Part shown: piece after piece, positions 2,822-64,000 of the stretch
How positions within the stretch are numbered: the stretch's first letter is position 1
Layout of the letters: each line of letters opens with the position of its first letter
IMG/VR virus record: IMGVR_UViG_3300021599_001395
Span: 86,388-150,387 of that record
Length of the DNA stretch: 64,000 bases
Direction: 5' to 3' (one strand)
DNA from: a virus
Position numbers and translations under genes: made by a program
The notes under the pieces: generated by a model
Told to the model about the DNA's origin: nothing
Database searches by the model: none
The model's input: the letters and a program-made list of their open reading frames with translations, nothing else

Positions 2822-2905
2822 TTAAAAATTTAATATTGCTCTATTAACACCTATTTTCATTGTTAATTCAGTTGGATTATCTGAACTATAATCTAATTCA
2901 CCCAT
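2822..2905 (-). CDS. 27-aa ORF matching the C-terminus of the tail tube protein (probable gene remnant)
   Basis: The ORF starts at ATG 2903-2905, two bases past the TAG of the RuvC-like gene, and is too short for routine gene calling. Its residues GELDYSSDNPTELTMK then IGVNRAILNF align without gaps to the last 26 residues of the tail tube protein in this window (GSLDYKQDEIASIDCG then LRPDRCILVY): G, LDY, D and R-x-IL coincide. The frame is closed by a stop about 12 nt upstream of the ATG. It is most likely the remaining tail end of a tube-like paralogue whose front has been lost. Confidence 0.5.
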   Translation of the reverse strand: MGELDYSSDNPTELTMKIGVNRAILNF

Positions 2906-2906
2906 A

Positions 2907-3512
2907 CTAATTTTTTTCTAATTTAATCATGTTAACATAACCAATAACAGCAGTTGCGGCATCACTCATATCAAAGTTTTCTTTCTTTAATTTGTTATTT
3001 TTATCATATAACCACTTAACATCTGCACAAACCGCATTTACATGTTCCCAAATTACTTGTTTTTTATCAATGTCTTTTGGATAACCACCAAACAAAACAT
3101 TTTTACCTTTGTCATTTTTATTAACTAAATCAGGAAATGCAAATTTTCTTGCATTATATGTTGATATAAAGGTGGGCACAATTCCCAAAGTATCATAAAC
3201 TATTTTACAAATCATTGTATTATACCTCAATAAAGTCTGAACGGTATAAATGTTATTTGAATTTAACAATGGTTCTTCGATGATTACACGAAGGATACCC
3301 ATATCTTTATAATTCTCGATATGTTTTTTGAAGGCATCCGCCTTCTTCAATAATTCCTCAAGTTTGTCTTCAGGTTGAGGTTTTATTTTTGGAGAAAAGT
3401 GTGTTAATTCCAATAATTTAGAACCAGTTAAATCAAATAACGCAAATCCAATTGTCTTTGTTGATATATCCAAACCTAATATCTTTGGACTATTCTTTAA
3501 TTTTATACTCAT
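2907..3512 (-). CDS. RuvC-like Holliday junction resolvase (RNase H fold)
   Basis: The 201-aa protein has the acidic residues of the RuvC/RNase H fold: D15 in ILGLDISTKTIGFAL, the Glu pair 79-80 in RVIIEEPLL, and D181 and D184 in FDMSDAATAVIGY near the C-terminus. Such enzymes cut four-way junctions to resolve recombination intermediates before packaging. The T4 resolvase, endonuclease VII, is a different family, so this phage uses a bacterial-type fold for the role. It is a single gene with its own short leader; the 27-aa remnant follows directly. Confidence 0.83.
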   Translation of the reverse strand: MSIKLKNSPKILGLDISTKTIGFALFDLTGSKLLELTHFSPKIKPQPEDKLEELLKKADAFKKHIENYKDMGILRVIIEEPLLNSNNIYTVQTLLRYNTMICKIVYDTLGIVPTFISTYNARKFAFPDLVNKNDKGKNVLFGGYPKDIDKKQVIWEHVNAVCADVKWLYDKNNKLKKENFDMSDAATAVIGYVNMIKLEKN

Positions 3513-3550
3513 AAAAGAATATATACGTGATATTTTTAAAAATGTAAAGT

Positions 3551-5656
3551 TTAGAAGTCTATTTTGATTGCAAAAACTTGTGTTCCTCTTCTAACAATTG
3601 GTTTCGCTGATTTAGCAACAACCAAGGCTTCTTTATTACTATCTAAAAGAGCAATCTCAGTTATCTTTTTATCTTCACCAGCAACATATGTTGGGTTCTG
3701 TGTTTCGGTAAATTGTGTACTTGGTAAGTTAACCAAAAAATTCATAACCTCAATGTCACTTGATCTAACAACTTTTATACTTCCAGGAAACGGTTGTTCA
3801 TCACCAAACTTTGGTTGCGTTGATGGTTCATGTACAATGTAACCATTACCAAAATAATTGTCTATCACATATTGTGTTCCGCTGTTATATTTTGAAAAAT
3901 TAACAATAAATGAAATGTCTCTTAAATTTACGGGGCCAAGAAAATTAACTCCGTTACCTCCCGCTTCTGTTGTAAAATCAATTTCAATCCAATCATCAGG
4001 TACGGGTCTTTGACCTGTTTTTGTTATTTGTACTAAAATTTTAAACTCAGTACCAACGAATCCATCAACAACATTTGGAAGAGTTGTTTTCATATAACTA
4101 AATGCGGTGGTATCGAATTTAACAACTAAACTTGTTGGTATTGTTGTGCCCTGTATTTTTGAATAATAATTACAAGGTAAACCATTTAAACCTTTATCTG
4201 AATTGGTAAAAGTATATGTCACCCATATTGTTTGATCTGTTGATCCTGTTAAAACTGAATTTGGTGCTGTGGTGTCACTTGGTACCAAATATAATTTTGG
4301 TGCATCTAAAGTATATCTTCTATTGCTTCTGTAATCTAATAAAGCAACTAATTCTTGGTCATCAAAAATTATTGTTTTTTTAGTGTAAAAAACTTTACCA
4401 ACTCTATTATTTTGTTCATCAAGTAAGTATCTATATGGTATATTTGAATTACCATTTAAGATTGGTGATGGTGTCGTGATTTCATAATCAACTGTATCCA
4501 TATTAAATAACGCTCCAACAACATTACTTGTATTTCTATGGTAACAAATAAATGGTATAAATACTTGGAAGTATTCTAAATCAGTTAATGGTAAACCATT
4601 TTCATCTTCTAATATTGAATCATTAACATTGTTATTGGTACTTAAATAATCATCATATTTAAAGAATCTTTCAGGATCAAATCTTATATCACCTAACTCT
4701 GAATAATGTATAACCGCCAATACCCTTTGTTCTTCAGGTGTCACGGTTATTGATTCACCAAAAGAATTTTTGTACGATGTGGTATTATTAATGGTTTGTC
4801 CGGATGATGTTGTGTATCCTAAAAATTGTTTTGTTGATATGTGTTGATTACTTGTGAAACCTGTTAAGTTTATGTTTGTTAAACCACTATAACCTATAGG
4901 ATTCTCATTCCACACAACATTTAATGTCCACGGATCGTGTTGATCCATTGGATCAATTGGTTGTGGTAAACATATCGGTGCAACACTAGTTGATGGTGGA
5001 AATTCTATTTGACATTTATTACAAACAACTTGTGCAAAACCTGTTAAAGTTGATAAGTCTGGTGTGGGTCTATCAAGATATATTGTATTTCCACTAATAC
5101 TTAAAACTTTATAAATTAAACTATTTGATTGTCCGGTTATTATTGGAACATTTGGATCGGTCCCACCAAACTGATCGAATACCAACGTAATATATTCACA
5201 AGTTTGAAATGTATCTCCAGATAAAACATCAATAGAAGAAGAACCATTAATTGTGGATATATCGATTCTATCCGTCACACACATTACCTTTGTTCCTATA
5301 CAATCAATATCATCATATTCAATATATTGTGAAACAAATCCCGCGGGACCCATCGGATTTCTTAAAATGTCAGTATATGAATTTTGAACAGGGACCCCAT
5401 AGGTTGTTGTTGTTACTGTTGTGTCTATTTTGTATGGATATTTAACAACTGTTTCTTTATCGTGTGGGGCAAAAACTTTTTGAAATGGTTTTTTAAAAGT
5501 ACCATCTAAATTTGTAAATGGTGCACTATAATCATATTCGGAATCACCAATTTGGAAATATGAAATTACAAAATTTCCCTTAGCGATTGAATTTCTACCT
5601 TTTTTTGTTACTCTGGCCGATAAAAACTCAGAGTTATTTTCTGTTAAAAAGCTCAT
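3551..5656 (-). CDS. Putative virion structural protein, 701 aa
   Basis: The protein begins MSFLTENNSEFLSARVTKKG and continues with an ISYFQIGDSEYDY segment. I associate this N-terminal pattern with tail or baseplate-linked structural proteins of T4-like phages, but a precise role is not known to me. The body is beta-rich with many Gly, Thr and Asn, a Cys pair in QVVCNKCQIEF, and no enzymatic motif. The C-terminus ends with KITEIALLDSNKEALVVAKS, which resembles the closing part of tail-fibre-like proteins. It starts a run of tail-associated genes and carries the TATTTATTA motif a few bases upstream of its ATG. Confidence 0.6.
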   Translation of the reverse strand: MSFLTENNSEFLSARVTKKGRNSIAKGNFVISYFQIGDSEYDYSAPFTNLDGTFKKPFQKVFAPHDKETVVKYPYKIDTTVTTTTYGVPVQNSYTDILRNPMGPAGFVSQYIEYDDIDCIGTKVMCVTDRIDISTINGSSSIDVLSGDTFQTCEYITLVFDQFGGTDPNVPIITGQSNSLIYKVLSISGNTIYLDRPTPDLSTLTGFAQVVCNKCQIEFPPSTSVAPICLPQPIDPMDQHDPWTLNVVWNENPIGYSGLTNINLTGFTSNQHISTKQFLGYTTSSGQTINNTTSYKNSFGESITVTPEEQRVLAVIHYSELGDIRFDPERFFKYDDYLSTNNNVNDSILEDENGLPLTDLEYFQVFIPFICYHRNTSNVVGALFNMDTVDYEITTPSPILNGNSNIPYRYLLDEQNNRVGKVFYTKKTIIFDDQELVALLDYRSNRRYTLDAPKLYLVPSDTTAPNSVLTGSTDQTIWVTYTFTNSDKGLNGLPCNYYSKIQGTTIPTSLVVKFDTTAFSYMKTTLPNVVDGFVGTEFKILVQITKTGQRPVPDDWIEIDFTTEAGGNGVNFLGPVNLRDISFIVNFSKYNSGTQYVIDNYFGNGYIVHEPSTQPKFGDEQPFPGSIKVVRSSDIEVMNFLVNLPSTQFTETQNPTYVAGEDKKITEIALLDSNKEALVVAKSAKPIVRRGTQVFAIKIDF

Positions 5657-5660
5657 ACAT

Positions 5661-5669
5661 TAATAAATA
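5661..5669 (-). promoter_or_regulatory. TATTTATTA motif upstream of the 701-aa structural gene
   Basis: The motif ends 4 nt before the start codon. Such tight spacing would give a nearly leaderless mRNA if it is a -10 element. Confidence 0.35.
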
Positions 5670-5683
5670 CATTTATTTTTATT

Positions 5684-6496
5684 TTACATTCCCGTACATT
5701 GGTTTAATCCATAAATTTTGTAATTATTCGTACCAATAGTAATTATTTGTGGATTTGTTGTTAATCCAATTCCATTTACAGCCAAATTAATTACTCTTAA
5801 ACTAGCAACACCGATTTCACTAACACCTGTACTATCAGTCGCCGATGTGTTTCCGGCAGGTAATAATAAACTAGGTAAGGTCGCGTTTCCACTTACAAAT
5901 GTTGTACACGTCGGATCACTAAATCTTCTAATGACAAAATCGAAATCTAATAAATCTAAAGTCGTCCCCGCAATCACATTGACTGTTCCATTAATAAATC
6001 CAGAACCATCACTTTCACCAAATGCAACAATTTCAGCGGTTATTCCGGTTGGTGTTGGTGTACTAGTTGGTGTTGGTGTACTAGTTGGTGTAGGTGTACT
6101 AGTAGGAGTTGGAGTGCTAGTCGATGTAGGTGTTGGTGTACTAGTAGGAGTTGGTGTACTAGTTGGTGTTGGTGTTACGATGGGTAGTGAACTGCAAAGT
6201 GACAAATTAAATGCTAATTTATTTAGTGAGTTAATTATCAGATCTGCATAATATGATGGTGTTGACGCCGCCAAAGTATTTAATTCATAATTAATGTTAT
6301 TTCTTCCAGATAAACCATATGTTGATCCAGTATATAGTGTTGATAAGGATGTATCACCACTAACAGCCTGAATAAATGAACCATACTCGGTACTTCCAAT
6401 AACCCTAAATATGGTTGCAAAATATCTCCCAAATGGTAATTGATTTAATGTACTGGTTAAAGCAACCATATCTTTGATCATATAAGACAGAATCAT
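5684..6496 (-). CDS. Tail protein C-terminal half with PTPTST linker (downstream part of a split vWA gene)
   Basis: The frame gives 270 residues. The first 100 (from DMVALTSTLNQLPFGRYFAT) look like the second half of a von Willebrand A-like domain. A Thr-Pro linker of PTPTST units follows (about 107-149) and then a beta-rich C-terminal domain with a few Cys. It overlaps the upstream gene by 92 nt in the +1 frame. The upstream protein carries the MIDAS motif but stops after YDQRYGCF, so the two ORFs look like halves of one gene broken by an internal deletion with a frameshift. The ATG at 6494-6496 may not be a natural start. Confidence 0.6.
   Translation of the reverse strand: MILSYMIKDMVALTSTLNQLPFGRYFATIFRVIGSTEYGSFIQAVSGDTSLSTLYTGSTYGLSGRNNINYELNTLAASTPSYYADLIINSLNKLAFNLSLCSSLPIVTPTPTSTPTPTSTPTPTSTSTPTPTSTPTPTSTPTPTSTPTPTGITAEIVAFGESDGSGFINGTVNVIAGTTLDLLDFDFVIRRFSDPTCTTFVSGNATLPSLLLPAGNTSATDSTGVSEIGVASLRVINLAVNGIGLTTNPQIITIGTNNYKIYGLNQCTGM
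6048..6175 (-). repeat. 18-bp-type tandem repeat encoding PTPTST units (copy 1 of 4 loci)
   Basis: About seven degenerate 18-bp units, each containing CTAG flanked by GGTGT-type triplets on the plus strand, encode a Pro-Thr-Ser linker. Near-identical arrays occur in three other tail genes of this window. Confidence 0.85.
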
Positions 6497-7595
6497 TATT
6501 AAAATAAGGTAATAAACATGGTTTTAATATTCCACTGTTCATATTGATTAATGGAGATAATGTTGAATTCATCGATCCGGATGAATCAAAATAAATATTT
6601 ATTTCCGTATTTTCATCTATTTCTGGTATGGTCAATTCATAAGTAAAATCACAAGGTAATGTTGTTCCTGTTACTTGAATATCACATGATGGTGGACATT
6701 CCTCAAATCTACTTGAAAAAATATCACCAACATTGGATGTGATTGCAGACCACATATACGTTGGTGGATTACTTACAGGATAATCAACATCATATGATAA
6801 AATAGAATGTAATGTACCATTACCAATATCATCTCTTACTTCCCATCTATTATTAGATTCATTCCAAAATACATAATAATCATCACAACATATTTGATAA
6901 TATGGTCTTTCATTGTAAACACCCATTGGATAATATAGTGTTGTATTATATTCTGTATCTGAACTATAACATAAATGATTAAAGCATACGGGGCATCCAA
7001 TAAAAACAACCCTTACTTGAAATCCACCTTGTTTTTTTGGATCAGTTAATGTATTATTTTTTATACTACCGTCCCCATGTTCAAGAAAAATATAAACAGG
7101 TTTGTGTGTTGGACTAAAATTTTTAAATTCATAAATAAACCCAGTAGATGGATTTGTTGTTGCCGTTGTTACAAATGTTGAAGCCGAAATTTCATATGTG
7201 AAACCTGTATATATACGATAACTATTTGGTACACCGTTAACGACAGATGAATGATTACCAAAATTTGTTGCACCTGAAACCAAATCATATATTGTAACAC
7301 TACTATTAGTACAACTACCTGTGGTACTAACATCAAGATAAAAATCTACAGTATCATAACATTCATAAACCTTACTATCATTAGTATATATTGTAGTTAT
7401 TGTTGATGTACCATCAACAATATCCGTTACTTTTATAAAGTACCTCGTATCAAATTCCAAATTTGTTATAACAACAGATGATGTTAGGCTTGGAAATGCC
7501 CCAAAAAACACATATGAACTTGATGACCCTCCACTATATTCTACAATAAAGTTATGTGGTATTTGTAAATTATATAACCTAACATTTAAACCCAT
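6405..7595 (-). CDS. Tail protein with fibronectin-like start, WNxxxxRWE module and vWA MIDAS motif (upstream part of split gene)
   Basis: This 396-aa product has a beta-rich N-terminal domain, a Cys-containing middle, and a module with YYVFWNESNNRWEVRDD that is repeated in other proteins here. Near the C-terminus EINIYFDSSGSMNSTLSPL carries the DxSxS metal-ion site of von Willebrand A domains, which mediate protein-protein adhesion. The domain is cut short: after NNDSVLYDQRYGCF the frame reads on into an unlikely tail and stops, while the rest of the domain continues in the next ORF in the +1 frame. I read the pair as one disrupted gene. A fibre or adhesin role is inferred from the domains and position. 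Confidence 0.6.
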   Translation of the reverse strand: MGLNVRLYNLQIPHNFIVEYSGGSSSSYVFFGAFPSLTSSVVITNLEFDTRYFIKVTDIVDGTSTITTIYTNDSKVYECYDTVDFYLDVSTTGSCTNSSVTIYDLVSGATNFGNHSSVVNGVPNSYRIYTGFTYEISASTFVTTATTNPSTGFIYEFKNFSPTHKPVYIFLEHGDGSIKNNTLTDPKKQGGFQVRVVFIGCPVCFNHLCYSSDTEYNTTLYYPMGVYNERPYYQICCDDYYVFWNESNNRWEVRDDIGNGTLHSILSYDVDYPVSNPPTYMWSAITSNVGDIFSSRFEECPPSCDIQVTGTTLPCDFTYELTIPEIDENTEINIYFDSSGSMNSTLSPLINMNSGILKPCLLPYFNNDSVLYDQRYGCFNQYIKSITIWEIFCNHI

Positions 7596-7599
7596 GATA

Positions 7600-9294: not shown

Positions 9295-10242
9295 TTAACA
9301 AGTACCTCCACTGTAATTAATATTACATGGTATACCTGTTGTATATATTTGTAAATCAGAAAATGAGAATAATGTTGTTGGCCAAGTTTTACTACATACC
9401 AATGTCTCTGATGGTGATCCAAAAGTACCTGATGGTATAACAACATCTTGAGATGTGTCATCACAACAATCTGTTATTGTAACAATTTTTGTTGATCCTG
9501 CGTTATATATCCTGAAAGATCTACATTCACTTGAACAATCAAAAGTGGGTATTGATGGTTGTGAATTATAAATAATCTGTGCACTTCCAGTAAGATCATA
9601 AACTCTATTATTACTTACCCATCTACCAATTGATTGTGTTGATGTGACATAATTCGTACATAAACACAATGGATAAAATAAAGCATCACAAGGATTACTT
9701 GGGTCTCCACAAAGAACAAGTGGATTTGAATAATTCACTGGTATACCTAAAGATGATGAATTTATTAATAGTTGTTGATTATTAGATATGGCCCCTGATG
9801 GTATACATACGTTACCCTCAATAAAAACGGCATTATTTAACCATGGTAACCCATTCCCTGTACCTAAAGATGCGGTATTAGAAAGAAGTAACCCAACTTG
9901 ACCACATTCAAATGATGATGGACAATTAACAGATGGTACAACCGGTGGTGGTGGTGTTATTGTTGGTGTACTAGTAGGTGTCGGTGTTGCCGTAGGTGTT
10001 GGTGTACTGGTGGGGGTTGGTGTTGATGTTGGTACAGGTAAATTATTGGGTATTTCTAATGTACATTGTTTTTCAATACTAGAAAAATATATAACATACG
10101 TACCAAACACATAATTACTAATATATGTGTACGGTAATACTTGTGATCCTAAATTAAAAGTACCGCCAGTATCGGGGAAAAAAGTTATTTCTCCTGTTTC
10201 CCCCTCATAATTTTGTGTTTTTATTATTATTTCTTGTATCAT
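9295..10242 (-). CDS. Modular tail protein with PDTGGTFNLG domain and PTPTST linker, 315 aa
   Basis: Three parts are visible. Residues 1-65 form a small domain (NYEGETGEITFFPDTGGTFN then an aromatic-rich strand) shared with the next protein in the block. Residues 70-94 are a PTPTST/PTPTAT linker. The remainder is Cys-containing and ends with a module (RIYNAGSTKIVTITDCCDD, then VVIPSGTFG and LVCSK) also present twice in the 1533-aa protein. This looks like an attachment domain joined to a display domain by a flexible, possibly glycosylated linker. The function is inferred from architecture and location. Confidence 0.6.
   Translation of the reverse strand: MIQEIIIKTQNYEGETGEITFFPDTGGTFNLGSQVLPYTYISNYVFGTYVIYFSSIEKQCTLEIPNNLPVPTSTPTPTSTPTPTATPTPTSTPTITPPPPVVPSVNCPSSFECGQVGLLLSNTASLGTGNGLPWLNNAVFIEGNVCIPSGAISNNQQLLINSSSLGIPVNYSNPLVLCGDPSNPCDALFYPLCLCTNYVTSTQSIGRWVSNNRVYDLTGSAQIIYNSQPSIPTFDCSSECRSFRIYNAGSTKIVTITDCCDDTSQDVVIPSGTFGSPSETLVCSKTWPTTLFSFSDLQIYTTGIPCNINYSGGTC
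9960..10033 (-). repeat. PTPTST-encoding tandem repeat (copy 2 of 4 loci)
   Basis: A short array of about four 18-bp-like units encodes the Pro-Thr linker of the 315-aa tail protein. Confidence 0.8.
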
Positions 10243-10271: not shown

Positions 10272-12611
10272 TTATGGACAACTAAAAGTATTTAATATCA
10301 CACCACCACTATCAACTTGTATTGCTAATCGTGATGTTCCAGAACAAAAAGTTGTCGAATTAACAATAACTATCCAATTTCCACCACCATCAGACGGAGC
10401 GGTTAATCCCGGGTCATCATACATTATCATACCAGCACTAAATACAGGTATGTCTCTATAAAAAGCTCTTGCACATGTTGATCCCGCAGCACAAGCCAAT
10501 CCCGATGTGGAATAAGTACTCACATTTCCGGCGAACACATATGAACTTGGTGGTGTACTACTAACCGTAGGAGTTGAGGTACTAGTTGGTGTTGGTGTAC
10601 TAGTAGGAGTTGGTGTACTAGTTGATGTAGGTGTTGGTGTTGCAGTAGGAGTTGGAGTACTAGTCGATGTAGGTGTTGGTGTTGCAGTAGGAGTTGGAGT
10701 ACTAGTCGATGTAGGTGTTGGTGTTGGTATTATAAATGATCCACACTGTTGTAATATACCAGATGATCCCGAATATATTACACCTATAGTGTAAGTGTCG
10801 GATGGTAATCCCGAAAAAGTGTCATGGAAATAATTCGTATTAAAAGGTGAACTATATACATCTTGATCGATAATTGTTCCTGATGAATTTAATGCACATA
10901 CAATTATTTGTGTTATTGATGGATTATTTTTTACAGAATTTTCAATACCAACTTCATAACCAAACTCTGTTGAATTTATATCACTTTGTATTGTAAAAGG
11001 ACAATTTAATGTATATGTTATTGGGCAACCTGAAGTTGGGTCCACACTAAAAAATGGTGCAACATAGTCGGGATCACCAACTGTATTATTTTTAATTTCA
11101 CCTGTTGGGGTATTTGTGTTTATGTCATATTTTTCAAGTGTGTCAACTATTACATCACCCGTGTTTTCCAATCCGGTAACCGCGTTATTGTAAAAAACAA
11201 CACTACCTTCACTTCTGTCTACTATTACTCCTCCCCAACCTACTGTGGGACCAGGACTTACTGACATTAAACTATTTGTCCCGTATTCATTTGTAACTTG
11301 TTCAATACCGGATAGATAATAATTAGGTATCAATCTTTTTATTTCATATGTGTCTCTATCAATTTCATAAGTTTGATATATTACAGTTGCATCTCCATTC
11401 ACATTATTAATTAATTGAGTTGCTATGTATAACTTACCGCTAACGGGATCTAAATTAAAAGTATAAACACCAACATCTTTACCTTGTAATCTTTTATTAA
11501 AAATAATTGTTGTTACAATTGTTGCTCCCGTATTTGTTGAATTTGGATTTAAAACCCACATTCTTCTTCCACCAATATCACTTACATAAACTTTGTTTTT
11601 TTCTATGTCATAAAATAGATATTGCCAATATCTACCAGATCCACCGGGAACTGAGGTAGATGATCCTGGTAATGTTATATAGGTTATAAAATTGAAATTA
11701 TCATCAAAAACACCGATATTACCAACTGTACCTGAACCCGAAGTTGACGTTACCCATAAATATGTTTGAGAGATCCCTGTACCAATTTCACGTGCAGTTG
11801 GTGCCCCTCCAACAAAATAAGTGTTTAGTTGAGTATTTCTTGGTATTATTGTTTTTGGTAAAGAAGGATTTTCTCTATTTATTCTTATTAAATCACCTGT
11901 TGGTGTTATTCCTGAAAGTGAACCGCCTCTAATGTCACCATATATAAAATTTTCTGAAACGTAAAGAAAATTTCTTTCGAATATATTATCACTACCGTAT
12001 GATATTTGTGTTATGGTGTTTCCGGTTGTGTCATAAATGATCATTCCTGTTATAATAGTATCAGTTGGTAACGTATTAAGTGGCGTTTGATTTGTACCTG
12101 TAAAATATATTCTCTTGTATGTTTTATCAAAAGTGCTAATATACAATGCAGGTGCTCTCAACCAACTTACATCACCAGTTGCACCAGTGATAAATGTTAC
12201 ATTTGATACGGATGTAGATGCTGTGGTTGGTGTAAACCAATATATATTACCCCTAAGATTGTCATCCGCGTCTGCAACCCAAACTCTATTTGTATCATCG
12301 TCATACCAAACATAAGATGGTGATGATATACCAGATAGTGAATTAGTGATTAAAAAGTTTGCACTTTGTTCACATGTGAAATCTAAAATTCTCCAAGCAA
12401 GTTCGGGTGACGTATCTATTAAAGTTGACGAACATGTTATACCAAAACCAGAAAAATATAAAAAATATGTACCATAGGGATACGTTGACTCATATTGATA
12501 AGGTATAACATGTGAACCTAAATTAAATGTTCCGCCGGTATCTGGATTAAATGTTATCTCCGCAACTTGGCCATTATAATTTTCACTTGTTAATGTAACA
12601 TTATATTTCAT
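10272..12611 (-). CDS. Modular tail protein with beta-propeller-like core and PTPTST linker, 779 aa
   Basis: Residues 1-60 repeat the NYNGQVAEITFNPDTGGTFN domain of the 315-aa protein. Residues 70-500 contain repeats such as VWYDDDTNRVWVADADDN, YDIEKNKVYVSDIGGRRMW and DPVSGKLYIATQL, the strand pattern of NHL/YVTN-type beta-propellers. A further beta domain follows, then a PTPTST linker (about 626-682) and a C-terminal Cys-containing domain of about 95 residues. Propellers often bind ligands or glycans, so a receptor-binding or adhesion role is plausible but unproven. It lies directly downstream of the giant 2329-aa gene. Confidence 0.6.
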   Translation of the reverse strand: MKYNVTLTSENYNGQVAEITFNPDTGGTFNLGSHVIPYQYESTYPYGTYFLYFSGFGITCSSTLIDTSPELAWRILDFTCEQSANFLITNSLSGISSPSYVWYDDDTNRVWVADADDNLRGNIYWFTPTTASTSVSNVTFITGATGDVSWLRAPALYISTFDKTYKRIYFTGTNQTPLNTLPTDTIITGMIIYDTTGNTITQISYGSDNIFERNFLYVSENFIYGDIRGGSLSGITPTGDLIRINRENPSLPKTIIPRNTQLNTYFVGGAPTAREIGTGISQTYLWVTSTSGSGTVGNIGVFDDNFNFITYITLPGSSTSVPGGSGRYWQYLFYDIEKNKVYVSDIGGRRMWVLNPNSTNTGATIVTTIIFNKRLQGKDVGVYTFNLDPVSGKLYIATQLINNVNGDATVIYQTYEIDRDTYEIKRLIPNYYLSGIEQVTNEYGTNSLMSVSPGPTVGWGGVIVDRSEGSVVFYNNAVTGLENTGDVIVDTLEKYDINTNTPTGEIKNNTVGDPDYVAPFFSVDPTSGCPITYTLNCPFTIQSDINSTEFGYEVGIENSVKNNPSITQIIVCALNSSGTIIDQDVYSSPFNTNYFHDTFSGLPSDTYTIGVIYSGSSGILQQCGSFIIPTPTPTSTSTPTPTATPTPTSTSTPTPTATPTPTSTSTPTPTSTPTPTSTSTPTVSSTPPSSYVFAGNVSTYSTSGLACAAGSTCARAFYRDIPVFSAGMIMYDDPGLTAPSDGGGNWIVIVNSTTFCSGTSRLAIQVDSGGVILNTFSCP
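10566..10734 (-). repeat. PTPTST-encoding tandem repeat (copy 3 of 4 loci)
   Basis: About nine units; two adjacent blocks containing a GGTGTTGGTGTTGCAGTAGG segment are identical, indicating recent duplication. Confidence 0.85.
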
Positions 12612-25480: not shown

Positions 25481-25481
25481 A

Positions 25482-37945: not shown

Positions 37946-38371
37946 TTACCCTTCAATTTCATCATCGTATTGAGAAAATGTTTCCGTCAATTTAAAATCA
38001 CCTCCACCTAATTTATTAGTCCAATATGTGGAATATTTTTCCTTATATTCTTCAAGTGATTCTTTTGTGTCAGGAATGTATCCATTGTGTACCGCAATGA
38101 TTTTACCATCTTTGTACCCCAAACCATTAACGTGATTTTTAAGTATTGAGATTTTTGTTCTAATTGCGTAAGAAACTTTTCTGCCATCTTTAGTTGCATC
38201 AATATGATTGATCCCCGCTTTCTTTTGATTACCAAATAAGAATACTAATGATGACGCTAACCATAATGCTTCCCCACCTTTAGCCTTAATTTCCGGTTGA
38301 CCAAATGTATTGTCGGGTAACTCAACCCATGAAACATATAGACCTATCAATTTCACCTTTTTCTTGTGCAT
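37946..38371 (-). pseudogene. uvsX: UvsX/RecA-like recombinase, C-terminal half
   Basis: From WVELPDNTFGQPEIKAKGGE onward the frame gives the C-terminal part of a UvsX core: LVFLFGNQKKAGINH and RTKISILKNHVNGLGYKDGK. Only the residues before WVEL, which come from the overlapping frame, do not fit the family. The N-terminal half lies in the adjacent frame and ends at CFMG. The roughly 60-70 residues containing the Walker B strand (normally after ICFM) and loop L1 region are absent. If real, neither half could form an active recombinase. Confidence 0.8.
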
Positions 38372-38762
38372 CTAATACCTCATTAATAAACTCTGTTGCT
38401 TGTTCAATATAATCAAAACTATCATTAAAGATAAAATCACCATCCCATTCACCATTACTATCTTTTTCAGCTTTTAATCCTAACTCGACAGCATGATCCC
38501 AACTCCATTTTTTTTCTGTAATAATGAATACAGGTAAGTGACCTTTCTTTTGAGCGTCTGCTGCCGTTAATACAAGTGCAGTTGTCTTAGATGAATTCGA
38601 ATGTCCTAAAAACATATTAACACCACCCATAACAGGACCGGGTAATCCGCAAGCGTTCATAAAGGCCTCACCACAATAATAGAAATTTGTTTCCTTATAT
38701 TTGGTTTTTGAAGAGAATTTCTCTTTGTAATTAAATTCTTTTTTCTTTATACTTTTTGCCAT
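38322..38762 (-). pseudogene. uvsX: UvsX/RecA-like recombinase, N-terminal half
   Basis: The 146-residue frame shows the UvsX start and Walker A loop (MFLGHSNSSKTTALVLTAAD), then the ITEKKWSWDHAVELG helix and DAQEKGEIDRSICFMG, where it stops. In intact UvsX the next residues form the Walker B strand. Here the sequence jumps, through a CATG microhomology, to the WVELPDN block in another frame. The rest of the replication operon (SSB, exonuclease, helicase) looks intact. Confidence 0.8.
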
Positions 38763-44000: not shown

Positions 44001-46817
44001 CCATTTTAATAGTAAATGATATGGTATAAAATGTGTTGAACCTATTTCTCTAAATAAAGAAGATACTTTTATGTTATTTGAAAATCTATCTTCCAAATCT
44101 TTAAAAGGTAATGAATTAAGTAATAAATATGCAGAACCCACATACTTACCAACTCTTCCTGATTTGAAGAAATCGGAATATAATTGTTTGTGGAAATATG
44201 GTGTATTTAAAATATTGACTTTAGTATCTAAACCGAATGTTTGTACCGTACCAGGTACTGGTACTGTAGTGGTACCTAAATACAATTTATTTGAAAATAT
44301 ATTATTCTTAAAATTATCTTTAACCCATAATTCGGGATTCACCTCTGTTGAAATAAATCCTTCCGATGTATTGACTTTTAAAGTGTTACCAAATTTAAAC
44401 TCATTATCAGTAAAACTATTTTGTTTTAAATAAGACAAATATGTTTTTGAATTAAATGGATATATTTCTGTTCTATATGTATCTGACTGATATCTTAATA
44501 AATCATCACTTAATTTAACATATAAAGAATCATTATTAACAGGTTTAGGGTTAGTATTATTATTAGAATTCCTGTTAGGGTCGTAATATTGTTCAAAAAT
44601 GTGTGGACTATCTATTATGCTAGAAATATAACCTACTGTTGGTAGTCTATCAACGTAATATGGATATCTATCAAATGGTGATAGACTTCTCATTAAGTTT
44701 AATAAGTCAGGAAAACTTTTAACACTGTCTCTTAATATATCAATAACATCATTGTCATGTTTTATCGACTCGCTTAAGTTTTCAAATTCAAAATTAGATA
44801 ATTCTCTTATTGTATTTGAATTAAAAGAATCAAATAATGTTATATAATATGATCTTTCAAATATTTCATATAATATAGAAACTAATGTTTTTTCTGTATA
44901 AGGAATTACACCTAAAGATTTACCAAAACCATTTATTAGTGTGTCAAGTGTACTTATCTTTTTTATTTTACCCTCATCTAAATTATCTTCAAAAACGTAA
45001 TCTATTTTACCAATACCACCTTCCTTTTCTGATAATGGGTCATATTTTTTAGTTGTTACCGCAATATAGTCTTCAACAAAATCAATTTCTGGCCACAATT
45101 TCTTATCATTAGTTTTCAATTTTTGTAATAGATCTTTATCACCAGGATATGCCACTACTTTACTTTTACTACCTGAACCTGTACTTTTTTTAACTTCCGG
45201 CCAAGGATATACCGCACCACCACCAGGTGTTTCATCGGAAAATCCGACTAATAAATTTTTTCTAGTTTCGGCATCTTGAAATGCCTTATTATGTGTATCT
45301 TTTAATAGTCTAATGTAAACTTCTGCATTAGCAAGAACCACAGCAAATATGTTTCTTATTGTTGGTTCAAACCCAATACCCTTTTTAGGGTCTCTTAAAA
45401 TTGTATTTATTTCTTTTTCAACATCTTTTTGTAGTGCATCTTTTTGTTTTAAAAATTCATTTACCATTTTTTTATAATCCTCACCAAGTAAATCAATATT
45501 CAACCCAACTTGTTTGTCTTTATAACCAATATAATCATCGATATTTTTAATATCGTTACTTTTCTTTAATTTAGTAAAATCACTACTTGTCTTGTTTATT
45601 ACATTATTGGCAAATAAATTAGTTTTAGATAAAAGTTCTTTATACCTATTTAAACCCTTTTCAAGAGTATCGTCTGAATCTCCTTTTATTTTTGATTTAT
45701 CTGTTTTATCGGATATATTTAATAAATAAAATAATTCATCCCCCCTTGTTCCGCCAGTGAAACTAACAGTAGATAAATTTTTCTTTGTCCATATGTTTAT
45801 GTATTCACCTAATTTTGATAAACCATCTTCATATTCAACTATACCTGCGAAAACCTTAAAATCTACTTTTTGAAATATTTCGTTTTCCAGTATTTTATCT
45901 AAACTTTCTGAAATTGTAATAAGTTCTTTAAGTGTTTTTACGGGAAAATTTGGATCAATTAATTTTTTTTGTTTTAGTTCATTATAAACAGATCTTAAAA
46001 TTGCATATCCTCTAGATGATTTTGAAATCTTTTTTTCAAAAGTACCACTACCTTCATTAAATGTTGGTCTTGTACTATTTTCAACTCTAAACATATAAGG
46101 ACAATTTAACATACCATTTAATGGTATATCAGAAATGTGTGCAAATGTTGCACCAACGAATGTTGCCATACTTTCAAAATTACCAGACCCTTCGTTAAAT
46201 TTTGTTGTAAATTTTACTAAATGTAATCTATATCTAATTGCCTTCCCATAATAACCTTTAACTGTCAAATAAAATATCGGCCAAGGTAAATGAAAAAATG
46301 CTTTATATGGTGAGTTTTCGGGAGACTCAAATAATGTTTTACCTCTAACATCTATAAAGTTTATTGTAACTTGTGGAATTGAGTTCAAACCTTTGGTTGT
46401 TATTGTTATACTATCAATACCAAAACTTTGTCCGGTTCCATCCGATTGAAAAAATTCACCAGTACCTACATTTATTTTATTACCATTTATGTCGGTACTT
46501 TTTTTTGTAATTTCTGTTTTTTCTAAAAATGCATTTGTCCATGACGTATCAAAATCATCACCATTTTGATTTCTTAAAAAATTAAGAGTACCTTTTGCTA
46601 TAGATATTAAAGTATTTTTATCATTACTAGAAACTAAAATAGATCTGGGAATAATATCCGCCTCCAAATTAACATACATCATCAAATTTTCAGGACGAAT
46701 AGATCTAGGTTCTATTTCACCATCCACAACAACACTGTTAGGGTCGACATAAATTAAATTATTTACATCTGATTTAACAAGAATGTCCTCACTATTTGAA
46801 ATATCTTTATTCCCCAT
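41028..46817 (-). CDS. Very large baseplate (hub-like) structural protein, 1929 aa
   Basis: The N-terminus (MGNKDISNSEDILVKSDVNN) leads into a beta-rich part with KAFFHLPWPIFYLTVKGYYG and FTTKFNEGSGNFESMATFVG, a pattern seen in large baseplate proteins. A Lys/Asp-rich helical middle (about 370-560) follows. Near 1640-1670, YTCQVSSMGNVMIQPTMYFY and MFKGTYWITEVTHSI resemble the gp27/gpD-type hub domain that surrounds the spike. A C-terminal 200-residue region contains VNIFGVPYNGFS and VKKVTGPVHVGPLLQGYGIC. Its ATG overlaps the gp53-like frame. Hub identity is inferred. Confidence 0.68.
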   Translation of the reverse strand: MGNKDISNSEDILVKSDVNNLIYVDPNSVVVDGEIEPRSIRPENLMMYVNLEADIIPRSILVSSNDKNTLISIAKGTLNFLRNQNGDDFDTSWTNAFLEKTEITKKSTDINGNKINVGTGEFFQSDGTGQSFGIDSITITTKGLNSIPQVTINFIDVRGKTLFESPENSPYKAFFHLPWPIFYLTVKGYYGKAIRYRLHLVKFTTKFNEGSGNFESMATFVGATFAHISDIPLNGMLNCPYMFRVENSTRPTFNEGSGTFEKKISKSSRGYAILRSVYNELKQKKLIDPNFPVKTLKELITISESLDKILENEIFQKVDFKVFAGIVEYEDGLSKLGEYINIWTKKNLSTVSFTGGTRGDELFYLLNISDKTDKSKIKGDSDDTLEKGLNRYKELLSKTNLFANNVINKTSSDFTKLKKSNDIKNIDDYIGYKDKQVGLNIDLLGEDYKKMVNEFLKQKDALQKDVEKEINTILRDPKKGIGFEPTIRNIFAVVLANAEVYIRLLKDTHNKAFQDAETRKNLLVGFSDETPGGGAVYPWPEVKKSTGSGSKSKVVAYPGDKDLLQKLKTNDKKLWPEIDFVEDYIAVTTKKYDPLSEKEGGIGKIDYVFEDNLDEGKIKKISTLDTLINGFGKSLGVIPYTEKTLVSILYEIFERSYYITLFDSFNSNTIRELSNFEFENLSESIKHDNDVIDILRDSVKSFPDLLNLMRSLSPFDRYPYYVDRLPTVGYISSIIDSPHIFEQYYDPNRNSNNNTNPKPVNNDSLYVKLSDDLLRYQSDTYRTEIYPFNSKTYLSYLKQNSFTDNEFKFGNTLKVNTSEGFISTEVNPELWVKDNFKNNIFSNKLYLGTTTVPVPGTVQTFGLDTKVNILNTPYFHKQLYSDFFKSGRVGKYVGSAYLLLNSLPFKDLEDRFSNNIKVSSLFREIGSTHFIPYHLLLKWGSIYHRYKKKILDNNDILDGFLSTSNITTNFNGSEFFDNNSGFTFTLNGSGVTYSNNSDVGIHPYYDAIFHQVVNGYNHYDVFSGSPSFDVNVVAGGIIGNARVVTNGMRYWTTFVDNSKYDPKDLRFTVLPSDGGNSYIPQNNFFEQEQKYTRIIWEDEGLFKNFSGLTFASPYQYTRNYNSGSTTNDNIFSMDTNYRKVIDLIATFNPDILNEMEEMFINFATSTVKEELPYKKFESVFYDKFQSILKDLCSVEKISTDTGRTDQIIIDIKNRQKDKIQNIHTKLLSKDNLIKFTNGNPKEIDSYVVNGFANINSGSTFSYNTFNIAQVSPNSKYIDLYLGEDIDNKYLQFFATNDIELSEDNVIQFRSLAQIFAGHYLNTASPTKPDFIDYIRKNVLVIDSTTTLTKRHTEFLQNLISQFSKLTKTTDAQRMTPVSGFGDEILKLETYNFFKSFNDKWIGGNSIGQRLLFEEFLFLDKANKDIGSDAYFNIQKLIPLGDTKNQKLNLYSVISVLIQGTGFDMRVLPSYINFYGANYSNKVKLIPSKKLAKNLFGTFLEVDYQESSPKVILQYTGPTSKHLDLNKYNKDYKFIDDSFNIQDQNRNPLIITAPAVFDNAELSKSNRVVAFEVSFGDQNQGIFKGVQLDQSSLKNTTESFIAMENLGRSESGANAYQVDIGLYDIYRQSSYTCQVSSMGNVMIQPTMYFYLKNIPMFKGTYWITEVTHSIRNNNITTNFTGTRIPYASLPDPKEATMATYRPLFESIVNKAQIKVKESLIKRPESEISLTVQDGRTVTVDLSGKSFNGETLVHRSGVNIFGVPYNGFSDNKTTGEKYIQLIENKNYSSPDKNYEWLRAAVVKMGGGIYKIDDDMTMGVINNIKTDPKPKPLLWGEIKDSSSTSYFYGTRFQTPNVISGSKIITANAKFINPKNNKEVFVSPSYDLNSTVKKVTGPVHVGPLLQGYGICMSDKLMRDLGLIDGDIVYFKLY

Positions 46818-47081
46818 AATATAATTTATACAATTCTACGTTTCTTTTGTAATCTTGTAAAGAGGTAACTAGTGGAAATGGTACTCTAACTACAAAATTA
46901 TCAGGTATTTCGAATTCAATACTACCCGCTAATGGGTTGGCCAATAATATTAACCACCCGAAGACAGGAGTACCATAATATTGATCTGAAATTTTATCTA
47001 ATCTAGTTTGATTTTTTTTAAAAAAAACATACTTATCTGTCTAAGAAATTCGTCATATCTATCATAATAACTTCTACTCAT
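46807..47081 (-). pseudogene. Baseplate wedge gp53-like (LysM-type) gene, frameshifted
   Basis: The ATG at 47079-47081 begins MSRSYYDRYDEFLRQISMFF and stops at 46998. The conserved body continues in another frame over 47040-46807: DKYVFFKKNQTRLDKISDQY, then YGTPVFGWLILLANP and FEIPDNFVVRVPFPL, ending ELYKLYYGE. This is the LysM-like wedge protein normally about 95-110 residues long. The join between EFLR and TDKYV lacks about 15-25 residues expected between them. The start overlaps the 1590-aa gene's stop and the end overlaps the 1929-aa gene's start, so the gene's borders are otherwise normal. Confidence 0.7.
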
Positions 47082-50000
47082 TTCTAAAATAATTTAGTTT
47101 TTTATCTACAGGTTGTTTTGTAGAATTTATTTTTGTAAGTATATCTTTTTCATTGGTGTCGGTAATATCTGATTGTGTACCTGTTTTAAACTTAATTTTT
47201 AATGTGTCTTTTCTTTTTGGGTATTTTTTTAATTTAAATTTAATATCATCAGGTTTTTCTAAAAATTTATCTAACGACTTGGATAATTTTTCTTTTTCAA
47301 CATTAGGTCTGAAAACAAGTACATCAGTATATTGATTTAATATATTATTTTTATAATCACTTAATAAATTTGAAATCATTTTTATAACTTGTGCGTCTGT
47401 TATTGATTGTGGATTATTAAAATTAACTGTGTTAGAAATTTTATTAGTTAATCTTACATGGTTATCACTAATATAATCAACGCACGATGAATATTTGTCC
47501 AATAAAATATCATATGTAAATCCAGATAAATCAACCTTTGTGAATTTTTCATTTTCTATTTTTCCATCATGTATATAATAGATTAAATAGTTTAACCCAT
47601 CTAATGTTTTTATAATTTCATTTCTAGCCAATATTAGATCTTTTTCAATTGCCCCAAATTTTTCTGGAATTTCATCAAATATTTTTTTAATTTCTGAACT
47701 TAAATATGGTTTTAAAATTTGATCTGAATTTGGGACTTTAGCATCCGGTATTTTTGCGTCTAATAGGTCTTTTGTTAAACTTGGTATTTTATTTTCAATA
47801 ACATCAACAAATCTTTCTCTAACGTCTCTCAATATTATTGGTAATTCTTTACTTTTTTTGTATTCACCTACTAAATCTAAAACAACAGTTTGAGCACCAT
47901 TTGGTTGTGTATAAACATCATATTTTGTTATTGGTCTATATGTTTCAGAAAAGAATAAACTTGTAATATCTTCACCATATTTTAATAAAGATGTGTTATA
48001 AGCACTCTTATATTTTTCAAAATAATTCTCAACTTGTTTAAATAATCCGTTGACTAAATCATCGTAACTTATTTCTTCACCTTCAGGTTTACCTATAAAT
48101 TTACCATTAACAATATTATTTCCATTATTAACATCGTCTTGTCTTTCAGGTGTTTTTGGTGCGTTTTTTTGTATCTTTTCTAAAAAATCTTTTGTAAACT
48201 GTTCCGCATCAACACCAGCAATTTTTGTATTTGTTGGTATGGATCTCTCATCGTACATTTCGGTATTAGCATAAAAATTAGATGATAGTGCGTTCTGTAA
48301 TTTTTCAACTGGTTTTTCTAATCCATGTCCACCAATGAAACTTAATTGTAATGTGACAGACGCAATCATCGGTTGTACACCAATACCTTCAGGATTAAAA
48401 TCCCAAACAGCATCATCAAAATTTATACTTATATCTTTTATGGCAACTTTTGAATGATAAAAATCCCCAATTCTTATTATACAAATTGGTGGTGGTCCAA
48501 ATGTTGTGTTTCTGGCATTTAAATCGGCTTCATCTGATAATCCTTTTATTGGTAATGTGTCGCCAGGTCTAATACATTGATGTAAAAATGTTAATCTAGC
48601 ATTTAAACCTTCCGGTGTCATTGAATGAAATGCGGGATGAAAATATTTTAATTTTTCTTTTAAAGATGAAAATTGTATTGGTGAATCCTCCTCTAATTTT
48701 TTGAAATAAAAACACTCCGATAATGTTTTCATTATCAATCTTTTCATAACATCAATAGGTGGTTTCTTTATTTCTTTTTTAATTTCAATTTTACCATCTT
48801 CTTCTAATGATGTCTTTGGTAAAACAGGTGGATTTGGTGGTGGTGGAGGTGGTGTTGGTTGTACCTGTTGTTTAATATATCCTATCTTTACTTTTGATTG
48901 TCTACAATTAACCGCAACTGGTGCTACAACATCTAATTTTTCACCTGCAGATACATTTAGCGGATATAAAAAATCTTGTGTTGTACACGAAACACTAGAT
49001 CCATTTTCTTCTACATTACCATATTCACCATAGTTTGTTACTTTTATTTTAAATTTACCATCTATCTCGTATCCAATGTCTCTAAATGTAACAATATCAT
49101 TAACCCATTGTATTGGGGACTTAGTGTCTTTAATATTATTGGTGGTTGGATCTGTTGGAAATACATATTTTAATCTTGTTGTTCTAAACTTTTCCATATC
49201 AAACGAAGGATCATTTGCTATTTTTTCAAAAATGTCCTTTAAGATTGAATATGTTCTTCTAAAAGATAAATTAAGGTTATATTCATTATTTGTTAACGCG
49301 GATGTTGATGATCCTATTTCAATTGTAACTTCTTGTACCGTACCTCCAGATATGTCTACTTTTAATTGATCAATTGTTTTTCTATATGTACTATAATTCT
49401 CATCTAATTTACTAAAAATATCTGTTAATCTATTTAAAGATATTTGTATTAAACTACTTTTACTTGTACCTCTAACATCTGTCTTACCATATAATAATTT
49501 TATATCGTTTAACATGTTTTTATCAGGATTTGTTGTTGCACTATATGCGGTTAACAAAAGATTTAAATTTTTTTGTAAAGCATTTTTCTGTTTGTCATAA
49601 TCTCCAGTTTGTTGTGTGGGTGACGATCCTTTATAATAAGAATATGCAGTTTCATAACTTTCCGCAGTTATATAATTCTTAGTACTCATTTTTGGATAAT
49701 CGTTCTCAAATTTTAGATTAACATCTAAATTAATATTTTGTGGTTGAGTACCTCCACCGCTAGGTGATGTGTTTGGTTCATCTTGTTTAATATCTTCAGT
49801 TACTACTTTATATTTTTGTATTAATTCAGTTGATACACCCGCATTCAAATATCTTTGAATTAGTTTTATATCATCTTCATTTAATGTTGCGTACTTTTTA
49901 ACTAAATCATATAAGTCAACATCTTGACATCCAGCAAAAAAGGCATTTATATAATTGTCCGCCTCTTCATCTGACATATCCTTAAAGACTTCTCTAACCA

Positions 50001-51429
50001 ATAAGTTCATTATACTTGGATGGTCGACAATTACTTTAAATGAAATTGTACCTGATCTTGATGTATTTTGATAAGTATAGATTGGTTCAGGTCTACCTAA
50101 AAATAAGTTTTCTTCCCATCTTGCATTGTTTGTTTCATTTACTTTTAAATCATATGGTGGAAACCACATAACTCTACCACCGTTTGGTCCTCTTTCGCAA
50201 TATGGTAAATCTTGAACTGTAAATCCTTCTCTATTAGATGTTTTCCATGCCAAGTTCTCAATTGAAAACATATATTTTTTAGCATAAAATCCACCACCAT
50301 ACGGGTAATTTGGAAATATATTTGACGATCCTTCAAAACTTTTATTACCATCGGACATAGGTGCAATATTCAAATTATAAGGTGTTGTTAAAACACTACC
50401 TTCAAATTTTCTAATATTAGTCCCTCTTTTCATGGTATCTGACCTTGTCATGTATGGTCTATCTTTTGTCCACACTCTACAATACTCAACACCACTTTCT
50501 TCTCCTGTAAATTTATCTGTATATTTAACTGCAGAACCTCTAGATATTCTAATATCACCTTCACCAAAAACTCTACTTGTTTGGTCAATAACATTTGCCA
50601 CATGTGAACGGGCTTCACCACCATTTGTTGGTAATGTATTTAATAGTTCTTGTGTTACTCCTAAAATAGAATCTTCTCTAAAATCAAAACCACTCGATAG
50701 AGACTGATCGTAATTTGATTTTTGTAAATTAAAAAACTCGTTGTTCGCACCTATTTTATTTTTTGAATTTTTACTTATCCAAGTTAATTTATTTGAAATC
50801 TGTCCTCCCTCACCGATATTTTTTGTTCTTTGAAATAGAGTTGCTTGTATCTCATCAAACATTAAAGTTAAATAAAAATTACTTTTAACAGGTCTATCAT
50901 TAAAATCACTCATCGCGTATTTTACATCATTTCCTCTGTCATCACCGATATATGCGATACCTGCCGGTGCTTCAACACCTAAAACATTTTTAACACCTTG
51001 TGCAACATTATCAACAAAATTAAATAATTTAGATGAATTTTGTGATCTTGCTGTTGTGGTATAATTTGGTGCATATTTTGAAAAAGATAAGTTGTCAAAT
51101 AATCTTTGTTTCTGACCCTGACCCATATACTCAATAAAAAGATCAGAAGGTTTCCTGTCTCTTTGTGGTCTTCTTTGAATACCGATTAAAGAACCTAAAG
51201 CACCTGTGACATCCTGAAGTATCGCACCTAATTCAGTTCTTGTATCAGGTCTAACATTTACAGGATTCGCCGGATTACTTAAATAATCACCAGGTATTTC
51301 TGTAAATGGGAATTCCACACCGGCAACAGATTGTAAAAAATCAATGGCTTTACCGGGTAATGTTTTTGCAACAGTAATTTGATAGTTTGGATCAACTAAC
51401 GGTTCTCTACCTGTTATTAGATTTATTGC
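47074..51429 (-). pseudogene. Large structural protein, main part after an in-frame stop (open frame about 1451 residues)
   Basis: After the TAA at 51430-51432 the same frame stays open: AINLITGREPLVDPNYQITV then AGVEFPFTEIPGDYLSN. The first in-frame ATG is only at 51318 (1414 aa). Features include a Pro-rich segment (PTPPPPPPNPPVLPKTSLEE, about 880), the block HPAFHSMTPEGLNARLTFLH plus IRPGDTLPI and ICIIRIGDFYHSKVAIKDIS, and helix-rich C-terminal sequence. I take these blocks as typical of a tail or baseplate structural family of T4-like phages, exact role unknown. Together with the N-terminal ORF it would be 1590 aa if intact. Confidence 0.65.
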
Positions 51430-51846
51430 TTACACGGGACCCTTTTGATCTTTATCCCTAATATATGATGCCGCAAATTTAAATAATTCAGATTCATTAT
51501 CGTAATTTGATGTGGTCATTATACCAACTAAATTATAGTTACCACTTCTAAAATATGGTGTTCCATTATAATATAATAATAAATTTGCTCTTCTTGGAAT
51601 TGTATCTATCCTATCTTTAACAAAATATTGTAACGGTTTAAATGTGTTAGAATTTTGATGTTGTTGTAAATCATTTGCTCTATTTGTATCTACCGCACCC
51701 GGATCTACATTTGAAAAATCACTTAGATTTTGTACTGTATAGTTACTTGCATTAAATGTCTGTGGACCATTTGGTTGTTGTAGTGTTCTAACAATTAACG
51801 CATCCCTAAATGTTCTTGTTGTATTAAAATCTAAATATGTTGGCAT
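51430..51846 (-). pseudogene. Large structural protein, N-terminal fragment before the in-frame stop, 138 aa
   Basis: The frame starts MPTYLDFNTTRTFRDALIVR and includes FVKDRIDTIPRRANLLLYYN, ending YIRDKDQKGPV. It is in the same reading frame as the long downstream part, separated only by TAA. The TATTTATAA motif precedes the ATG. The stop could be a nonsense change or, as I favour, the scar of an internal deletion that joined TA of one codon to A of another. Readthrough cannot be excluded. Confidence 0.65.
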
Positions 51847-54783: not shown

Positions 54784-55272
54784 TTAATAAACAAGAATAC
54801 AACGATCTGGTCTTAATCCACAATCAATTGATGCAATTTCATCTTGTTTGTAATCAAGTGAACCAAAATTTAAACTTGTTATAAATGTACCTTGAAGAAT
54901 CCATTTTTCAACAACAACACCTGTTGGGTCCAACATTTCTAATTCAATATCTTTTTTATAACCAGCAGCATAACCCATACGACCTGTAACTGATTCTGCA
55001 TGTAAACGGAACCACTCCATTAACGCCTGTGCGGCAGAAGGACCAATTGGGTCTTTAAATGTTACTTTCATCTCATCCCATGTAAATCTACCAGCAACAT
55101 ATGTTGAGGTATTTAAAAAAGGAATCTCAGTTGCATTTATTTTTGCTGATGGTCTCTGTGTTGATATTACATACCATTCGTTAATTCCCAAAGACGAAGG
55201 GAAACGAAGGATAAACCTGTTCTGTCTTTTCGGTTCGTAAGGAACCGGCATTTTCATTAGTAAATCTGCCAT
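54784..55272 (-). CDS. Tail tube protein, T4 gp19-like
   Basis: The 162-aa protein has the gp19 pattern: PYEPKRQNRFILRFPSSLGI, a NATEIPFLNTSTYVAGRFTW strand region, VTFKDPIGPSAAQALMEWFR helix, and a C-terminal beta block ending GSLDYKQDEIASIDCGLRPD. Its length equals T4 gp19 (163 aa). It forms the inner tube inside the sheath. It is placed between the sheath gene and the chaperone/tape-measure pair and is bounded by terminators. The last 26 residues match the orphan ORF at 2822-2905. Confidence 0.85.
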   Translation of the reverse strand: MADLLMKMPVPYEPKRQNRFILRFPSSLGINEWYVISTQRPSAKINATEIPFLNTSTYVAGRFTWDEMKVTFKDPIGPSAAQALMEWFRLHAESVTGRMGYAAGYKKDIELEMLDPTGVVVEKWILQGTFITSLNFGSLDYKQDEIASIDCGLRPDRCILVY

Positions 55273-59935: not shown

Positions 59936-59936
59936 T

Positions 59937-60449: not shown

Positions 60450-60452
60450 ACC

Positions 60453-60461: not shown

Positions 60462-60498
60462 GTTTAAAAATACATTCTATTTACTTATATTAGTTAAT

Positions 60499-62250: not shown

Positions 62251-62439
62251 TTCTTCAATTTTTTCATCTAACAATTTTACAAAGTTTTTATCTTCATTAT
62301 TTGAAAAATTTACAATAATTTCTTTTTTAGGTTCTAAAGTGTGATTTATAAAATTATTCTCACCTTCTCTTTGTAAAATAAAATCAAAATTATTTATTAC
62401 ACATATCCTAAATAGTTCGTCTATTTTTTTATCTATCAT
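62230..62439 (-). CDS. Small hypothetical protein, 69 aa
   Basis: The start is set at ATG 62437-62439 (MIDKKIDELFRICVINNFDF), because an upstream in-frame start would lie inside the previous gene. It is charged, Asn-rich, with a C-terminal helix FVKLLDEKIEELKNIIQ. It overlaps the previous gene's end by 11 nt and, convergently, the helicase gene's end by 21 nt. The function is not recognised. Its coupling to the nuclease-like gene suggests a joint role. Confidence 0.55.
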   Translation of the reverse strand: MIDKKIDELFRICVINNFDFILQREGENNFINHTLEPKKEIIVNFSNNEDKNFVKLLDEKIEELKNIIQ

Positions 62440-63319: not shown

Positions 63320-63336
63320 AATACCGAAATATAAGA

Positions 63337-63344
63337 TATTTATA
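63337..63344 (+). promoter_or_regulatory. TATTTATA motif upstream of the plus-strand structural gene
   Basis: On the plus strand the motif lies 15 nt before the ATG at 63360, so the signal follows gene orientation. Confidence 0.38.
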
Positions 63345-63359
63345 GTAAATAAACAAATT

Positions 63360-64000
63360 ATGGCGGCGACTATTATAACACCGGAAGAAAAAGACAAATT
63401 ATTTACCAGCTGGCGATATCAGAATATGAGCAATATGTAAACGATTGGTTAATCGAATCACAATGGTCTGCATTGGCTAATTTGGACGTTGATAACAACT
63501 CATTAACAAGGGCATTTACAAATAGAAGTTTAGATTATGAAACTCAATACACTTACGCATATTCAAAGATAGTGGGGTTACAAGCAAACGGTCCATGGGA
63601 ACTTAAAAAAGATTATTTTGATTTAGTACAAAATCAACAAACATATGTAATCCCCGCAGGACGTGAAATTAATGAATTATTATGGTTTACAAGGGCCACA
63701 TTAACCGACTCTATTGTTGACCCATTTTTAGGTGGTTTTGGTGGTCTTGGGGGTGTTGCATTTGGTGGTGTCGGGGGTTTCGCACAAGTAGGTGCGTCAG
63801 GTTCTTATTTCTTATTACCCGCGTTTGACCTATTATTAAGAATGGGTGATAGGAATTTAAAAAATAGATTAATTGGTGGTGATTTAACATATAGAATAAC
63901 TGCAGGTCCAAATGGAACTAAAATAGTACACTTACTTAATGTACCGGGTGGTAAATTTGATTTTGGATCAATAAATAAAAATACAAGAGTTTGGTATTGG
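63360..64000 (+). pseudogene. Structural (neck-type) protein gene, frameshifted near its start and cut by the window edge
   Basis: The ATG at 63360 encodes MAATIITPEEKDKLFTSWRY and stops at 63440. From about 63407 another frame stays open to the window end: QLAISEYEQYVNDWLIESQW, TRSL-type segments such as TNRSLDYETQYTYAYSKIVG, GPWELKKDYFDLVQNQQTYV, a Gly-rich loop and LTYRITAGPNGTKIVHLLN. Both parts look like one family that starts ATIITPEEK and continues to ISxxEYxQYVxxWL; about 25-30 residues are missing between LFT and QLAIS. The role is thought to be a head or neck structural protein, unconfirmed. Confidence 0.62.

Follow-up and report, generated by a model that had tools for sequence, protein, structure and literature searches.

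Deletion-bearing defective phage genomes have lost internal pieces from genomes that are otherwise normal. The window analysed here is a stretch of 64,000 nucleotides, bases 86,388-150,387 (the last 64 kb) of the linear 150,387-bp virus record IMGVR_UViG_3300021599_001395 (hereafter G000). It belongs to a T4-like phage with a contractile tail, in which a tail sheath, a tail tube, gp25, baseplate-J proteins and a DnaB-like helicase are encoded. Five genes of the window lack internal pieces. Unlike those of defective phage genomes, the deletions described below are private, are tied to one dataset series and occur across several phage groups. The missing pieces are very probably an artefact of data production in that series, arising by misassembly or in the library, and not deletions of the phage.

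The closest described counterparts of these gaps come from the evaluation of assemblers. In the passage of PMC6350398 on QUAST, a local misassembly is a break with collinear flanks on the same strand and a gap under 1 kb. G000 resembles this class in that its flanks are collinear on one reference strand and its gaps are under 1 kb. It differs in the reference, which here consists of sister contigs and not of a known genome, and in the 9 private events found in 428 kb of sequence other than G000. In a test with a single spiked phage, also given in that part of PMC6350398, every assembler but SPAdes (meta) produced at least one local misassembly. The misassembly categories of LMAS, as listed in the relevant section of PMC9795473, include 'deletion', and the present gaps are similar to that class of misassembled contigs; the difference is that a mock community, which could prove the causal step, is not part of the present comparison.

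Missing pieces and their intact counterparts

Sister contigs of G000 were located through protein scans of viral contigs. The same phage is present in datasets 3300031787 (G001, 286,785 bp), 3300042691 (G006, 208,497 bp), 3300008110 (G003), 3300008107 (G002 and G011), 3300008448 (G009) and 3300032116 (G010), with short pieces in 3300031951. Relatives at about 75-83% DNA identity (G004 and G005) and more distant ones also exist, while a megablast of window positions 1-25,000 against the phage collection gave no match. G006 (3300042691_025071) was chosen as the reference because it is 100% identical to G001, from a different dataset, across 168,610 bp.

Compared to G006, G000 shows 8 clean deletions, 0 insertions and about 8 substituted bases over 150 kb, and outside the deletions the two are collinear. 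Three deletions (162, 95 and 302 bp) fall in the part of the record not covered by the window and five (176, 191, 49, 81 and 73 bp; 570 bp together) inside the window, for a total of 1,129 bp. The five fall, in this order, in the genes for a tail protein of 695 amino acids (aa), a UvsX-like recombinase (uvsX), a gp53-like protein, a 1617-aa structural protein and a head-tail connector, the sizes being those of the G006 frames. Four of the five are not multiples of three; the 81-bp deletion is in frame, yet its gene is still split into two open reading frames (ORFs). Contigs from other datasets, two to five per site, carry the intact form at each of the eight sites, and none of them shares the gap.

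An earlier, sequence-only reading of the window had named these five genes as carrying missing pieces, and each does have a deletion relative to near-identical contigs. Complete versions of the same genes, which it had proposed to look for on related contigs, are present at all five window sites, and intact phages sharing the broken gene structures, which it had named as the outcome that would count against it, did not occur. The range it had given, 2822-63440, applies from position 6470 onward; no deletion lies between window positions 1 and 6470.

With two contigs alone, each site could be read either way, as a loss from G000 or as an insertion (an intron or another mobile piece) in its relatives. 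The wider set of relatives leaves the insertion reading with next to no probability. Both uvsX and the connector gene form one stop-free frame, the extra segment included, in 8 of the 8 relatives searched for each gene, even where identity is as low as 58% and 77%, respectively, and the sequence was therefore lost from the record and not gained by the relatives. At all five window sites, the segment also lies at least partly within an open G006 frame.

Several genes broken in a single record would likewise be expected of a degenerate integrated copy, and a decaying prophage or defective lineage had been among the explanations offered earlier. This is hardly credible in view of the few substitutions that separate G000 from intact contigs. 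Moreover, the virus contigs G001 and G006 extend beyond both ends of the record, and a scan with the helicase over genome contigs from bacteria and archaea, sensitive to close relatives only, gave no relative.

Private deletions across datasets

A census was made by comparing loci and whole contigs of different datasets pairwise, with clean deletions of at least 15 bp recorded and whole-contig duplicates dropped; gaps measuring 16, 18 and 1 bp escaped it. A deletion was called private when at least two other datasets had the intact form and the gap was shared by no other contig. At an identity of at least 99%, the 3300008xxx series, presumably Lake Erie bloom samples, together with G000 (14 contigs, 578,126 bp) gave 19 events, of which 17 were private, 2 pairwise-only (in G004 and L152, kept out of the private count) and 0 shared. 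The other datasets (109 contigs, 1,761,521 bp) gave 2 events and no private one; both events are common to other contigs and in this respect behave as true polymorphisms should. The contrast of 17 private deletions with 0 has P = 5e-11 when G000 is counted in the series. When G000 is left out, 9 private deletions in 427,739 bp are set against 0 (P = 4e-7). The corresponding counts are 11 against 0 at 97% identity, where the events of G004, L150 and L212 were kept apart as pairwise-only, and 13 against 2 at 95%. The private events other than those of G000, 9 in 428 kb or roughly two per 100 kb, are 82 to 286 bp long. Private insertions were 0 among the events listed at 99%.

The deletions are spread over sister contigs, relatives and other phage groups alike. 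Private deletions, each different, are found in G003 (86, 82 and 231 bp), G002 (147 bp) and G011 (286, 90 and 152 bp). Among the relatives, G004 (3300008262) lacks 174 bp that are present in G005, and L150 (3300008107) lacks about 121 bp; three pieces, of 255, 169 and 78 bp, are missing from L152 (3300008261). The Ma-LMM01-like contig L223 (3300008113) lacks 172 bp kept in 8 of 8 spanning contigs (11 given) and in the isolate MaMV-DL01. A Mic1-like contig, L295 (3300008112), is without 159 bp kept in 11 contigs and in the Mic1 isolate, and also without 142 bp that two contigs keep. In the Mic1 scan, which covered five 3300008xxx contigs, L295 showed two private deletions at 99% identity and L289 one of 63 bp at 95%. 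The deletion fault is frequent, and not universal, in the 3300008xxx series: several phage groups are affected, and not every contig.

Insertions and deletions seen at 95-97% identity among Mic1-like and PaV-LD-like contigs were mostly common to several contigs and, as presumed differences between strains, were set aside; the PaV-LD scan, with 19 contigs and none from the 3300008xxx series, served as a control only. It is noted that, compared to the Microcystis phage isolate MaMV-DL01, G012 (3300008120_000018) is short of about 210 bp and about 134 bp in two gaps around 98343-98873. These were left uncounted since no near-identical contig spans them, and either the same fault or genuine divergence between strains could explain them.

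Junctions and the origin of the gaps

The 23 deletions available for junction analysis span 18-302 bp, with a median of 147 bp, between collinear flanks on the same strand, the true sequence being taken from the sister contigs. Multiples of three account for 10 of the 23 (P = 0.21), which gives no hint of selection for intact frames, though structural genes are affected; such selection would remove frameshifts. This lack of frame bias counts against the idea that the deletions are real, carried by defective genomes or produced by a deletion process at work in the sampled phage populations, as had also been suggested from the window. In favour of real deletions, each is clean, and the five of the window would disrupt genes, which is what defective genomes should show. 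Against them, 0 of the 19 series events at an identity of at least 99% is common to a second contig, the deletions in G000 are about as many as its substitutions, and several phage groups are affected within one dataset series. In addition, the 34-bp junction sequence of uvsX was absent from the viral contigs searched, among which its own record may be excluded. Real deletion variants are in our judgement very improbable. Still less probable would be an agent or condition acting throughout the samples when they were collected, which simultaneously caused true deletions of about 20-300 bp, independent of homology, in several different phage populations, with the shortened forms becoming dominant in each sample.

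The junctions of the five window deletions have 3, 0, 1, 0 and 1 bp of homology, where microhomologies of 1-5 bp had been claimed. Over the 23 deletions, the homology is 0 bp in 12, 1 bp in 5, 2 bp in 3, 3 bp in 1 and 4 bp in 2. The resulting mean of 0.96 bp is at the level of chance, random deletions of the same sizes giving 0.84 bp (P = 0.34). It should be mentioned that the junction rows of L150, L212, L223 and L152 (the 169-bp deletion) contain 43, 6, 7 and 12 mismatches, respectively, and their homology values are less reliable. The 23 missing pieces were also tested for bias in GC content and folding energy, and no overall bias was found.

These values are of consequence for the library version of the artefact, in which molecules would have lost internal pieces by jumping during the polymerase chain reaction, by template switching or by ligation, and the assembler would have followed the shortened molecules. 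Such losses would likewise be dataset-specific and random in position. However, template switching, like slippage, should leave an excess of junction homology, whereas the observed homology is at chance and folding shows no overall bias. Ligation would link molecules that are far from each other, while the places joined here are never separated by more than 302 bp, and blunt chimeras would not stop at 300 bp. As a rule, chimeric reads form the smaller share and should rarely win the consensus, which also counts against the library version. We therefore hold it to be a minor possibility, though one to be taken more seriously than real deletions. Among the explanations first put forward for the window, a library or assembly artefact thus stands, with its template-switching form weakened.

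The computational version of the artefact, a local misassembly, is the likelier form and probably accounts for the gaps. Two contig ends flanking a thinly covered stretch would be joined under the guidance of read pairs, while the unread sequence between them, at most about 300 bp and near the length of a short insert, would be dropped with no Ns inserted. Joins of this kind would need no homology, would take no account of the reading frame, would stay within an insert length, as the present gaps of at most 302 bp do, and would only remove sequence. The joining step itself is a proposal. Two of the few places with private substitutions, window positions 38308 and 6213-6218, are separated from a deletion junction by 24 bp and about 255 bp, respectively; perhaps these are consensus errors made at the same joins. 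As to the programs in use, the part of PMC5647855 on assembly has one Lake Erie group applying IDBA-UD to Microcystis isolates, and the corresponding part of PMC12542629 (2025) has 2014 Lake Erie samples assembled with MEGAHIT; a link of either work to these datasets is not established. The dataset names, and such a deletion fault in them, were not found in the portions of the literature consulted, PMC5242441 included.

Several observations weigh against an artefact of one dataset series. The place of G000 in the 3300008xxx series is an inference; it would belong to that series or have been made in the same way. The series itself was delimited only once the first events had been noticed, which makes the early counts partly post hoc; a later test was the Mic1 scan. 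At 95% identity, 2 private events occur outside the series (2.2 Mb) compared to 21 within it (0.6 Mb); one of the two is presumably that of L299, of 257 bp. One private event at 95% identity is in an isolate. Within the series, the Mic1-like contigs L288, L290 and L297 are without a private deletion, and G009 (3300008448) is deletion-free over 72.6 kb. GC content is unusually high in two of the 23 pieces (z about 3), one of which is strongly folded (z -3.65). Finally, IDBA-UD is rated as generally precise in the relevant parts of PMC5253355 and PMC6350398, counter to blaming the program as such, and a full-text search on four dataset numbers and two Ga identifiers returned no paper.

Affected genes, genome ends and consequences

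The coordinates of the affected genes are collected in Table 1, in which the ends of the gp53-like gene and the start of the connector gene were converted from G006 ORFs.

Table 1. Window genes with missing pieces, and the tail-tube gene (window coordinates)
Gene	Position	Strand	Intact form	Deletion and junction	ORFs in G000
Tail gene (vWA protein of the sequence-only reading)	5684..7595	-	single 695-aa ORF in G006	176 bp; junction 6470-6473, 3 bp homology	5684-6496 and 6405-7595
uvsX-like recombinase	37946..38762	-	335 aa	191 bp; junction 38331/38332, 0 bp homology; private substitution at 38308	37946-38371 and 38322-38762
gp53-like baseplate wedge gene	46807..47081	-	107 aa	49 bp; at about 47042	
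Large structural gene	47074..51846	-	1617 aa	81 bp; at 51430/51431	47074-51318 and 51430-51846
Head-tail connector-like gene	63360..64000	+	372 aa (in G000 running off the record end)	73 bp; at about 63407	
Tail-tube gene, complete	54784..55272	-	phrog_4542	none compared to G006	

The site of the tail-gene deletion is intact in G001, G002, G003, G006 and G009. The intact 695-aa protein has PHROG matches of unknown function only and no match in Pfam; the vWA label was that reading's own. The intact gp53-like protein matches phrog_7145 (E 9.5e-5) and the connector-like protein phrog_211, and for the intact 1617-aa structural protein no match was found in PHROG or Pfam. The 1590 aa that had been given for the last of these equal the intact 1617 aa minus the 27 removed by the 81-bp deletion. 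A tail-tube remnant had been listed as well; the only tail-tube gene found is full length, and 162 of 162 residues of its product align to the tail tube of Microcystis phage Mel-JY01. The precision reached from raw sequence is otherwise remarkable.

Threonine-proline repeats of the (TPTPTS)n type occur in several tail-region proteins (window 5684-6496, 9295-10242, 10272-12611 and 12637-19626). G006 and G003 both start within such repeats, and G001 and G006 differ by indels of 12 and 36 bp near the start of G006; the repeats seem to trouble assemblies. At window positions 24061-24768 and 24770-25516, two adjacent genes encode paralogous proteins with the motifs GRGKH/GKGKH and TCFAG/TCFVG, which to our mind recall caspase-like peptidases. 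Neither protein has a match in Pfam, and the first is also without a match among solved structures.

The two ends of G001 (3300031787_000001), positions 1-134 and 286652-286785, are near-identical over 134 bp, with one mismatch. This suggests that G001 holds the whole phage genome, circular or circularly permuted and about 286.6 kb long; G000 would in that case represent about half of it.

In the phage as such the genes appear to be intact, and as biology the case is ordinary. The finding is a matter of data quality, namely silent gaps in contigs of one dataset series within a public virus collection. Such gaps break genes and can be mistaken for split genes, pseudogenes, frameshifts or new small proteins, and comparison with sister contigs from other datasets suffices to catch them.

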